This document shows positions 5,862-8,456 of a stretch of 34,714 nt of DNA, in pieces. The DNA lies in the IMG/VR virus record IMGVR_UViG_3300017991_005537, positions 1-34,714 of that record; one strand, given 5' to 3'. Origin of the DNA: a virus. Position numbers and translations under genes: made by a program. The notes under the pieces are model-generated. The model searched no databases, had not been told where the DNA came from, and was given only the letters and a program-made list of their open reading frames with translations. Positions within the stretch are counted from its first letter, which is position 1; each line of letters starts with the position of its first letter.

Positions 5862-6091
5862 ACTCATACGAAGAGAGATATTACCGTCAAATGCTTGATG
5901 AAAATGAGTGTGTTTCAAATCTCATGCTTGAAATTAAAGGGAAGTTGCTAGATCAAGACTACGATATAGCCATTGAACGCTGTTTTGATATGATTCGATC
6001 TTTAAAACAAATGAAAAAACTCAACATGGAAAAACGTGCAGTCGATATGCTTTTCTTTGCAGCAAAGAACGCTCTCAGGGGACAGAAGTGA
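5858..6091 (+). CDS. Small early phage protein, unknown
   Basis: 77 residues from ATG 5858, which overlaps the upstream stop in an ATGA junction and has GGGTGG a few nt before it; this is preferred over the in-frame ATG at 5834 lying inside the neighbouring gene. It is a helical, charged protein (RYYRQMLDENECVSNLML, then IERCFDMIRSLKQMKK) with no recognised domain. Both junctions (ATGA upstream, TGATG downstream) show it is translated as part of a tightly coupled early cluster with the HTH gene before it and the 29-residue hydrophobic peptide after it. Confidence 0.65.
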   Translation: MNSYEERYYRQMLDENECVSNLMLEIKGKLLDQDYDIAIERCFDMIRSLKQMKKLNMEKRAVDMLFFAAKNALRGQK

Positions 6092-6180
6092 TGGATGACC
6101 TTCATCTTGTTCTAGCATATGCAGGTTTGTTGTTTATGATTTTTGGAAGTTTAATAGTTTGGAATTCATCACAAAAATAA
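6091..6180 (+). CDS. 29-residue hydrophobic peptide, possible membrane toxin-like peptide
   Basis: A short ORF whose ATG shares a base with the preceding stop codon (TGATG). The product has an acidic N-terminus (MDDLH), one hydrophobic segment (LAYAGLLFMIFGSLIVW) and a polar tail NSSQK. Size and layout are like the holin-like toxin peptides of Bacillota type I systems (TxpA/BsrE type). The coding region is followed at once by a hairpin at 6184-6212, as often seen in those loci. No antisense RNA gene could be identified. It could equally be a small membrane regulator. The family call is inference; the ORF and its coupled start are visible. Confidence 0.5.
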   Translation: MDDLHLVLAYAGLLFMIFGSLIVWNSSQK

Positions 6181-6183
6181 GAA

Positions 6184-6360
6184 GCAGCTAGCTATTTCCG
6201 GTAGCTAACTGCAAGCAATGGTAAAATCATCTGTTTCCATTCTATCATTCTAGTTTTTGTGTGGCAAGGAACTTTGTTCCTGCCATCATGGGTAGAAGTG
6301 GACAAGCTTTTCCCCCGAGCTGAGAATCCATTTCTGCCTGTGATGGTGCGAACAAAGCAC
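6184..6360 (+). ncRNA. Candidate structured RNA upstream of yqaI
   Basis: This gene-free stretch folds by eye into four elements. (1) An 11-nt arm pair at 6184-6194/6202-6212 with one mismatch and a TTTCCGG loop. (2) A hairpin GGCAAGGAAC (6263-6272) with GTTCCTGCC (6276-6284) and one bulged A. (3) A 20-bp helix, 6283-6302 with 6327-6346, in which all four deviations from perfect complementarity are transitions that still give G-U pairs. Its loop contains AGCT (6305-6308) facing AGCT (6318-6321). (4) GTGC/GCAC at 6346-6360. Elements 2 and 3 share bases 6283-6284. No U-tract is seen. It may be a leader or processed RNA of the recombination operon. Family unknown. Confidence 0.45.
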
Positions 6361-6386
6361 TAAAACATAAAGAAAGGAGGAATAAC

Positions 6387-6602
6387 ATGCTCGATCATCC
6401 AGTAACCACACGAATATTGCGTACTGGCTACCCAAATATGCTTGCTCAGTCAGAGCATTACGGTATCGACTATTTCGGTGATGAGATTCTTGTTGATGAT
6501 GATATCATCGAGGATCCAAACACTGGAGAAACAGTATTAAAAGATAACTTGGAACGCTATCTTGTGGAAGTTTATGAATTCAAGTTTCAAACTGCAAAAT
6601 AA
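6387..6602 (+). CDS. yqaI: YqaI-like phage protein
   Basis: 71 residues from ATG 6387 with AAAGGAGGAA upstream. It resembles B. subtilis skin-element YqaI, a small protein of unknown function: the IDYFGDEI core and the C-terminal pattern LKDNLERYLVE..EFKF correspond to that protein's ending as I remember it. It is acidic, with VDDDIIEDP in the middle. It directly precedes the YqaJ exonuclease gene as in skin. The partner-like location suggests a link to the recombination module, but no biochemical role is known to me. Confidence 0.75.
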   Translation: MLDHPVTTRILRTGYPNMLAQSEHYGIDYFGDEILVDDDIIEDPNTGETVLKDNLERYLVEVYEFKFQTAK

Positions 6603-6604
6603 AA

Positions 6605-6626
6605 AGCTCACTGGCCAGAGTGAGCT
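6605..6626 (-). terminator. Hairpin after yqaI with U-tract only on the minus strand
   Basis: Perfect 8-bp stem AGCTCACT/AGTGAGCT (6605-6612, 6619-6626) with loop GGCCAG, 2 nt past the yqaI stop. On the plus strand no U-run follows, so it should not terminate the early operon and may stabilise or process mRNA. On the minus strand it is followed by TTTTATTTT, a good intrinsic terminator for antisense transcripts. Confidence 0.55.
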
Positions 6627-6675: not shown

Positions 6676-7611
6676 ATGCAAGCTACTGTTTTAGCGACGA
6701 CTACTGAAATGAATCGCCAAGAGTGGTTGAAAGCTCGAAAAAAAGGAATCGGTGGTAGTGATGCTGCTGCAATAGCAGGATTAAATAAATGGAAATCTCC
6801 AGTTACCGTTTACCTAGATAAAATTGGACAAGCTGTTGATGGAGATTCAAGCAGTGAAGCTGCTTATTTCGGATCCATTCTTGAGGATGTTGTTGCACAA
6901 GAGTTCAGTAAACGTACAGGTATTAAAGTTCGTCGTAGAAATGCGATTTTACAAAACCCAGAACATCCTTTCATGTTAGCGAATGTGGATCGTTTGATTG
7001 TAGGTAAAAAAGAAGGTCTTGAGTGCAAAACAGCAAGTGAATATCTCAAAGAAGAATGGAAAGACGACGAAGTTCCAGCACAATATTTAATCCAATGCCA
7101 GCATTATATGGCTGTCACTGGGTATGAAGCTTGGTGGATCGCTGTACTTATCGGTGGAAATAAGTTTATTTACAAGAAGATCGAACGTGATGAGGAAATC
7201 ATTGATTACTTAATTCAACTAGAATCAGACTTCTGGAACAATCATGTCCTTAAAGAAGAACCACCAATGTTTGATGGTTCAGAAGCCTCATCTGAATTGC
7301 TGAAAGCACTATATCCAGAAGCTGTACCCGAAACAGAAATCGAGTTACCTCCAGACGCAAACAGCCTAGTAGATGCTTTAGATCAAGTTAATTCTGAAAT
7401 CAAAGAACTTGAAACACAAAAGAAAGAATATGAAAACCAACTAAAAGCCATGATGGGTGAGAACGAAAAAGCATTCGCTGGGGACAAAATCATTACTTGG
7501 AAGTCCGTATCTTCAAATAGATTTGATAGCAAACGTTTCGCCAAAGAGCATCCAGAACTCTACAACCAGTATACTAAAACAACATCTTATCGTCGTTTTG
7601 CGATTAAATAA
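6676..7611 (+). CDS. yqaJ: YqaJ-family viral recombinase (exonuclease)
   Basis: 311 residues. The YqaJ domain covers about 13-190: EWLKARKKGIGGSDAAAIAG at the N-terminus, FGSILEDVVAQEFSKRTG, then the nuclease core LANVDRLIVG and GLECKTAS (about 99-120, acidic residue then E-x-K) and IQCQHYMAVTGYEAWWIAVLIGG (Q..Y motif). Proteins of this PD-(D/E)xK family are 5'-3' exonucleases, like lambda exonuclease, which resect double-stranded ends and hand single strands to an annealase. A coiled-coil occurs at about 235-265. ATG 6676 has AAAGGGTGAG upstream. It is adjacent to recT, forming a two-component single-strand-annealing system. Confidence 0.93.
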   Translation: MQATVLATTTEMNRQEWLKARKKGIGGSDAAAIAGLNKWKSPVTVYLDKIGQAVDGDSSSEAAYFGSILEDVVAQEFSKRTGIKVRRRNAILQNPEHPFMLANVDRLIVGKKEGLECKTASEYLKEEWKDDEVPAQYLIQCQHYMAVTGYEAWWIAVLIGGNKFIYKKIERDEEIIDYLIQLESDFWNNHVLKEEPPMFDGSEASSELLKALYPEAVPETEIELPPDANSLVDALDQVNSEIKELETQKKEYENQLKAMMGENEKAFAGDKIITWKSVSSNRFDSKRFAKEHPELYNQYTKTTSYRRFAIK

Positions 7612-7622
7612 GGGGGATTCAA

Positions 7623-8456
7623 ATGGCTACCAATAAAGATGTGAAAAATCAATTAGCAAGTAAAGCAAAGGGAAATAATGCACCAGTATCACCAGCAAAT
7701 ACAATAGCTGCTTATCTCAAGAAGATGGGACCAGAAATTGAGAAAGCATTACCTAAACATATGGATGCAGACCGATTGGCTAGAATCGCATTAACCACTA
7801 TTCGTACAAATCCAAAGTTACTGGAATGTTCCATTCCTTCACTAATGGGTTCGGTAATGCAAGCCGCACAATTAGGATTAGAACCTGGTTTAATTGGGCA
7901 TTGTTACATTATTCCATACGGGAAAGAAGCAACTTTCATTATTGGTTACAAAGGCATGATTGACCTAGCAAGACGTTCTGGACAGATTCAAAACATTTAC
8001 GCTCATGCGGTGTTTGAGAATGATGAGTTTGATTACGAGCTTGGATTGGAGCCTAAACTAAGGCACAAACCATATATGGTTGGAGATCGTGGAGAATTTG
8101 TTGGAGCCTACGCTGTGGCTCATTTTAAAGATGGTGGGTATCAATTTGAATTCATGCCAAAAAGTGAAATTGAAAAACGCAGACAGCGATCAGCTGCAGC
8201 AAAATCAAGTCATAGCCCTTGGAAAACCGATTATGAGGAAATGGCAAAAAAGACAGTAATTCGTCATATGTGGAAGTACTTACCGATTAGTGTAGAGATA
8301 CAACAACAAGCAGTCCAAGATGAAGTTATCCGAAAAGATATTACAGCTGAACCAGAGTTTATTGATATGGAAGTACCAGCTATCGAGGAAGATACCAAAA
8401 GCAAAGAAGAAGTAGTTGAACCTCAACAAGAGGAGATTGTATTTGATGTTGATTAA
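7623..8456 (+). CDS. recT: RecT-family single-strand annealing protein (YqaK)
   Basis: 277 residues. RecT domain at about 35-215 with the characteristic SLMGSVMQAAQLGLEPG, HCYIIPYGKEATFIIGYKG, MIDLARRSGQI and later DYEEMAKKTVIRHMWKYLP. RecT annealases coat single-stranded DNA exposed by the partner exonuclease and anneal it to a complementary strand, promoting phage recombination and concatemer formation. The C-terminal 45 residues are acidic and disordered-looking (EEDTKSKEEVVEPQQEE), a common docking tail. ATG 7623 has AAGGGGGA upstream and lies 11 nt after yqaJ. Gene order is that of the skin element. Confidence 0.95.
   Translation: MATNKDVKNQLASKAKGNNAPVSPANTIAAYLKKMGPEIEKALPKHMDADRLARIALTTIRTNPKLLECSIPSLMGSVMQAAQLGLEPGLIGHCYIIPYGKEATFIIGYKGMIDLARRSGQIQNIYAHAVFENDEFDYELGLEPKLRHKPYMVGDRGEFVGAYAVAHFKDGGYQFEFMPKSEIEKRRQRSAAAKSSHSPWKTDYEEMAKKTVIRHMWKYLPISVEIQQQAVQDEVIRKDITAEPEFIDMEVPAIEEDTKSKEEVVEPQQEEIVFDVD

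Follow-up and report, generated by a model that had tools for sequence, protein, structure and literature searches.

A family of structured RNAs with an overlapping predicted leftward promoter, found by structure ahead of recombination and replication genes in Bacillales phages

Comparative analysis indicates that a long hairpin in a viral DNA of 34,714 nucleotides (IMG/VR record IMGVR_UViG_3300017991_005537, positions 1 to 34,714, hereafter the window) is one member of a widespread, uncatalogued family of elements in the early mRNA of temperate phages of Bacillus-like bacteria, where it probably controls the use of the recombination/replication part of the message. Comparison of relatives shows that the rightward fold is under selection, that two of its loops pair, and that it keeps a fixed position in the operon; a leftward promoter and a leftward terminator, both predicted from consensus, are conserved as well. 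The best overall reading, to which we give a probability of roughly 0.4, is that of a new structured RNA family serving as a cis-acting boundary element of the early mRNA.

A preliminary description of the window had claimed a helix of 20 consecutive pairs whose only departures from Watson-Crick pairing were G-U, and this proved exact: arms 6283-6302 and 6327-6346 pair from C6283-G6346 to A6302-U6327 with no mismatch, and the four non-Watson-Crick pairs (U6289-G6340, G6290-U6339, U6293-G6336, and G6298-U6331) are all G-U. Also as described, a second hairpin (H1) at 6263-6284 overlaps the long helix, with C6283 and C6284 common to both, and in the window this region stands immediately 5′ of yqaI, yqaJ, and recT, which we recognized by Pfam matches. 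The only ORFs overlapping the helix region are short antisense ones. The + strand of 6256-6366 folds at -49.0 kcal/mol, compared with -26.8 ± 3.5 kcal/mol for shuffled sequences (z -6.4; 0 of 200 shuffles as good), whereas the reverse strand reaches only -33.6 kcal/mol (z -2.5), folding much more weakly because G-U pairs turn into A-C there. Three features had gone unseen in the earlier description: a third hairpin (H3), a loop-loop pairing between 6272-6279 and 6350-6357, and an overlapping predicted leftward promoter. The parts of the element and the genes that follow it are:

6263-6284, + strand: hairpin H1 (GGCAaGGAACUUUGUUCCUGCC), from sequence, fold, and an arm-pairing test in 56 clusters
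6272-6279, + strand: H1 loop segment CUUUGUUC, 8 bp of loop-loop pairing with 6350-6357, from sequence and a family permutation test
6280-6284, + strand: 3′ arm of H1, whose alternative partner is the 5′ arm of H3
6285-6302, + strand: 5′ arm of hairpin H2 (with 6283-6284, the 20-bp arm described earlier), from sequence, fold, and covariation
6303-6326, + strand: pyrimidine-rich apical region of H2, with CCCCC at 6312-6316, from sequence
6327-6344, + strand: 3′ arm of H2 (with 6345-6346, the other arm described earlier), from sequence, fold, and covariation
about 6344-6362, + strand: hairpin H3, core GUGC GAACAAA GCAC at 6346-6360, from fold and the arm-pairing test
6350-6357, + strand: H3 loop segment GAACAAAG, partner of the H1 loop, from the permutation test
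6371-6380, + strand: Shine-Dalgarno sequence AGAAAGGAGG of yqaI (start codon at 6387), from sequence
6387-6602, + strand: yqaI, the next gene after the element (Pfam PF09466, 42.9 bits)
6676-7611, + strand: yqaJ (Pfam PF09588 / PF03837 matches for the yqaJ-recT pair)
7623-8456, + strand: recT (same pair of Pfam matches)

Relatives were sought by retrieving loci around YqaI and YqaJ homologs and folding the DNA upstream of yqaJ, and many of these loci presented the same plan of H1, long H2, and H3 despite unrelated sequence. Direct nucleotide searches failed: blastn found no match to the element region in phages or plasmids and no match to another element plus its upstream region in phages, and comparison among the first related loci gave no useful match, so the family was detected by structure only. 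An initial scan for the pattern was far too permissive, its minus-strand matches being about equal in number, and it gave way to tighter filters and a covariance model; this model matches upstream of yqaJ on the coding strand, the weaker opposite-strand matches being reverse complements of the same elements. The resulting 78 relatives (56 clusters at <75% identity), from prophages and phages of Bacillales, have one common architecture, consisting of H1, a long H2 whose tip is rich in C (in many cases exactly CCCCC), and H3, with the H1 loop pairing with the H3 loop.

Covariation across these relatives is very strong. In an alignment of 26 elements made by MAFFT from sequence only, and not fitted to the covariance model, 92% of cells were paired, two-sided changes occurred in 21 of 26 pairs, and the covariation score was 0.659, against 0.06-0.12 when the partner was slid by 1-3 columns; the alignment of all 78 elements, fitted to the model, scored 0.732 against 0.06-0.14 when slid. 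The earlier suggestion that RNA structure is under selection thus passed the compensatory-change test in both alignments. H2 pairs in the 56 clusters comprised 563 Watson-Crick, 91 G-U, and 2 A-C, and this preponderance of G-U over A-C shows that selection acts on the rightward (+ strand) RNA. The flanking hairpins behaved similarly, with own-arm pairing stronger than permuted pairing in both H1 (-8.94 vs. -5.45 ± 0.30 kcal/mol; 0 of 5000) and H3 (-7.06 vs. -4.74 ± 0.24; 0 of 5000). The longest C-run in the H2 tip was exactly 5 in 27 of the 56 clusters and averaged 3.82, compared with 2.84 ± 0.12 in shuffled tips; pairing of this C-rich tip with the ribosome-binding site, upstream sequence, downstream sequence, or leftward RNA was no better than in permuted or shuffled controls. 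We regard it as nearly certain from these comparisons that the region encodes, on the + strand, a structured cis RNA of a new family.

The three hairpins also appear to have an alternative. Contiguous pairing between the H1 and H3 loops averaged 5.79 vs. 4.45 ± 0.14 in the family permutation test (0 of 10000), and pairing of the H1 3′ arm with the H3 5′ arm was likewise kept across the family (0 of 5000 permutations; 137 Watson-Crick, 83 G-U, and 0 A-C cells). Together with the loop pairing and H2, this second pairing makes a single helix of ~30 bp with one mismatch. A control pairing of the H1 5′ arm with the H3 3′ arm was equaled in 199 of 5000 permutations, so that part of the permutation signal reflects relatedness among elements, which these tests remove incompletely. 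The overall energy minimum averages 3.1 ± 2.1 kcal/mol below the sum of the three separate hairpins, with no loop-loop energy credited to the latter, and the two folds are therefore close in energy family-wide. The idea that the overlapping hairpins alternate accordingly gains support, as both pairings of the H1 3′ arm are kept across the family and the fold energies are similar.

We next consider distribution. Covariance-model matches at E ≤ 0.001 were present in 21 of 80 genomes of one Bacillus family, 43 of 200 genomes of a Planococcus family, and 11 of 299 Bacilli, and matches at E ≤ 1e-4 in 3 of 398 Bacillota, element frequencies that are lower bounds because filtering was stricter in the large surveys. 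Of six named phage records, those of the Geobacillus phages phiOH2 and vB_GthS_PK5.2 contain the element, and those of SPO1, A118, GBSV1, and JGon-2020a lack it. The published records of both Geobacillus phages leave it unannotated; in phiOH2 it sits in an unannotated gap between gp48 and gp47. In what was searched, the family appears restricted to temperate phages and prophages of Bacillales. Searching the window and 20 diverse related loci against Rfam 15 gave no family at or above gathering score, permissive searches giving far sub-threshold matches only, to unrelated types, and no riboswitch matched in the same set; the element has two near-equal folds and lies beside a ribosome-binding site. 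The tandem pseudoknot repeats before a toxin gene of type III toxin-antitoxin RNAs are absent from the window, where the element is single copy and is followed by yqaI, yqaJ, and recT. We found no equivalent element described in the open-access literature, subscription journals lying outside the scope of this search.

In the early operon the element is intergenic: Rha/antirepressor-class genes and small ORFs precede it, the recombination/replication module follows, and it stands some 2.5 kb into the operon, away from the operon's promoter. The association with yqaI noted earlier holds in the window and does not extend to a general rule, many relatives having another next gene. Across the family this gene may encode YqaI or a small HTH protein, or be another small gene ahead of one for an SbcC-like ATPase, an exonuclease, or a DnaD-like helicase loader. 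Such variation between phages would be expected if the element acts for the transcript as a whole and not for a single protein. The end of the element is followed within ~10 nt by a strong ribosome-binding site and start codon in 46 of 56 clusters, with the ribosome-binding site farther away in 5 and none found in 5; in a few relatives it is at least 30 nt off or absent. On the + strand, the sequence 3′ of H3 in the window reads CACUAAAACAUAAAG, without the G+C-rich hairpin and following U-run of an intrinsic terminator. Downstream of the elements we counted 1 rightward intrinsic terminator in ~150 kb, and 30 leftward ones.

Several further structures occur in this neighborhood. In the window, a second leftward terminator-like hairpin (GCTCACTCTGGCCAGTGAGC then TTTTTATTTT; 6606-6625, minus strand) comes directly after yqaI, and similar leftward terminators lie 220-550 nt downstream of the element in relatives, a recurrence that suggests further leftward transcripts; in two loci (L169 and L172) a leftward terminator-like hairpin abuts H3 (AAAAAAGCCCACTGGGTAGAGTGAGCTTTT), ahead of the next gene. 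Three Geobacillus-type loci (L004:112-215, L013:2162-2260, and L022:2531-2625) carry a leucine-type tRNA-like sequence right after the element, with an acceptor-like stem and a T-arm-like stem, that is rejected by ARAGORN and Rfam. We dropped the notion of tRNA genes after the element in some Geobacillus-type loci, as ARAGORN finds none, and this sequence is possibly a degenerate or tRNA-like structure. In three other loci (L010, L011, and L017), a hairpin in which a CCTATG...ACTTACATAGTACAGG-like sequence recurs stands immediately upstream of yqaJ and is possibly a second conserved RNA element.

Overlapping the element on the opposite strand are a predicted promoter and a short predicted transcript, called from sequence consensus:

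6239-6267, - strand: predicted leftward sigma-A promoter
6267-6262, - strand: its -35 box TTGCCA, inside the H1 5′ arm
6247-6239, - strand: its extended -10 TGA-TAGAAT (TGATAGAAT), with a 17-nt spacer
about 6232-6171, - strand: predicted leftward RNA of ~60 nt, its start placed from the -10
6212-6184 (stem) and 6183-6171 (U-rich tail), - strand: predicted intrinsic terminator of the leftward RNA

In relatives, a motif to the left of H1, at a distance of ~17-30 nt, reads as the reverse complement of TGNTATAAT. An extended -10 scoring at least 7.5 was found leftward in 31 of 55 clusters and rightward in 2, with 1.7 expected by shuffling, and in 25 clusters a TTG stands at a spacing of 17-18 from the -10, falling in the H1 5′ arm. 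On the left side of the element, 38 of 55 clusters have a leftward intrinsic terminator and none a rightward one, with 2.7 expected by shuffling, and no conserved rightward promoter was found near H1 (2 of 55 clusters). In the other 17 clusters the terminator went undetected, and ~10 have a weak promoter motif; the antisense RNA is therefore not universal. In the window the predicted leftward RNA is almost wholly intergenic, its tail touching the last codons of a small ORF that ends at 6180; this short ORF (6091-6180, MDDLHLVLAYAGLLFMIFGSLIVWNSSQK) has a hydrophobic stretch and ends just ahead of the leftward terminator. Between the leftward -10 and H1 there is often an inverted repeat that varies in sequence from phage to phage (e.g., GCTCTTTAAAGAGC), for instance in L160, L169, and L063. 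This repeat in the promoter spacer could serve as an operator for a repressor, or it could give the rightward RNA an additional hairpin.

Several known systems share parts of this arrangement. In the CopA-CopT and RNAI-RNAII plasmid kissing complexes, loop-loop kissing can progress to a longer continuous helix, as it would here, except that both loops of the element are in one molecule and flank a long hairpin. RNase III processing sites in phage early mRNAs (T7, SP82) are long hairpins between genes, and the element resembles them as an intergenic long hairpin in an early mRNA. Its H2 offers 20 bp and its extended fold ~30 bp, against the ~20 bp or more of continuous double-stranded RNA of an RNase III substrate, which makes it a candidate for such processing; unlike them, it carries a further pair of hairpins whose loops pair with each other, and a C-run that is conserved. 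The T4 gene 32 leader likewise places a pseudoknot upstream of a recombination-protein message, although its fold is unrelated and the gene downstream of our element varies. The put sites of phage HK022 are conserved cis RNA hairpins in an early operon, acting as an antiterminator; their architecture and position differ, and the element has almost no rightward terminators downstream. By analogy, the nearest known layout is that of lambda pO/oop, which shares a short leftward RNA with an intrinsic terminator, convergent with the early transcript, between regulatory and replication/recombination genes. To our knowledge, lambda has no comparable rightward RNA structure at pO. Convergent leftward transcription from pO tunes early transcription or replication (PMC3985674), and oop, of 77 nt, acts with RNase III on cII mRNA (PMC3985674, PMC12197685). 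The leftward promoter upstream of recombination/replication genes and the terminated short RNA are both found here by sequence, at the frequencies given above, whereas the ~60-nt predicted RNA is mostly intergenic, in the window does not lie antisense to the end of any repressor-class gene such as cII at its 3′ side, and takes its -35 box from the 5′ arm of a rightward RNA fold that is itself conserved.

Taken together, these comparisons make some form of post-transcriptional control in cis fairly probable. A specific version, combining antisense RNA, RNase III, and a protected 5′ end, is possible and we advance it tentatively. The predicted leftward RNA has, by its construction, perfect complementarity to the stretch of rightward mRNA immediately 5′ of H1; pairing of the two there would invite cleavage by RNase III, after which the mRNA downstream would begin with the compact H1-H2-H3 knot as a protected 5′ end, close to a strong ribosome-binding site. 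Alternation of the kissing hairpins with the ~30-bp continuous helix, whose length would by itself suffice for RNase III, would then set survival and translation of the downstream mRNA. With equal tentativeness, a bistable RNA switch passing from kissing hairpins to continuous helix, together with the overlapping antisense promoter, may time expression of the recombination/replication mRNA.

Other explanations account for parts of the same evidence. A translational operator or switch, in which a phage or host protein (e.g., a product of the downstream module) binds one fold and thereby exposes or masks the site where ribosomes bind ahead of the next gene, would suit the long Shine-Dalgarno sequence that usually adjoins H3, the similar energies of the two folds, and the unpaired C-run as a potential protein contact. 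We consider it rather unlikely, given that the C-run has no specific pairing to the ribosome-binding site and that the element is kept when the next gene changes and in the few cases without a nearby ribosome-binding site, which makes autoregulation by one downstream product unlikely. Independence of the downstream gene would instead be expected of a processive antiterminator RNA like put, whose nascent form would bind RNA polymerase so that later early-operon terminators are read through, and a compact conserved RNA early in a long operon fits this; yet the single rightward terminator leaves little to read through, unless the target is Rho-dependent stops, and the element does not adjoin the promoter of the operon, leaving this explanation improbable.

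The opposite strand offers another candidate, in that the leftward promoter could be the main function, with convergent transcription tuning early transcription or replication and the RNA structure accessory. Lambda pO is a precedent (PMC3985674), and a leftward extended -10 with a short terminated RNA does stand at the entrance of the recombination/replication module. The structure is, however, more consistently conserved, several clusters keeping it without a clear promoter or terminator, and the G-U bias reflects selection on the rightward RNA; we hold this reading to be distinctly unlikely as well. The self-contained fold of ~100 nt might alternatively be cut out, or terminated behind H3, as a free trans-acting small RNA, but no conserved rightward terminator follows H3 (in the window, the sequence is the CACUAAAACAUAAAG already given), in most clusters a ribosome-binding site is attached to the element, and no conserved target sequence is evident, so that we give this very little weight. 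Least credible of all, to the point of near dismissal, is a DNA feature (a cruciform, protein-binding inverted repeat, or origin) or a chance hairpin: the extended repeat of ~30 bp is partly palindromic, but the strand asymmetry in H2 and the pairing kept between relatives without sequence identity contradict it.

The structure yields precise predictions for arm swaps, loop swaps, and promoter mutants. If the switch interpretation is true, an antisense promoter and an mRNA structure can evolve within the same bases, and a bistable switch with a -35 box as one of its arms would be a regulatory architecture without earlier description. More broadly, the conserved operon position suggests a shared, undescribed step in the early gene control of these phages.
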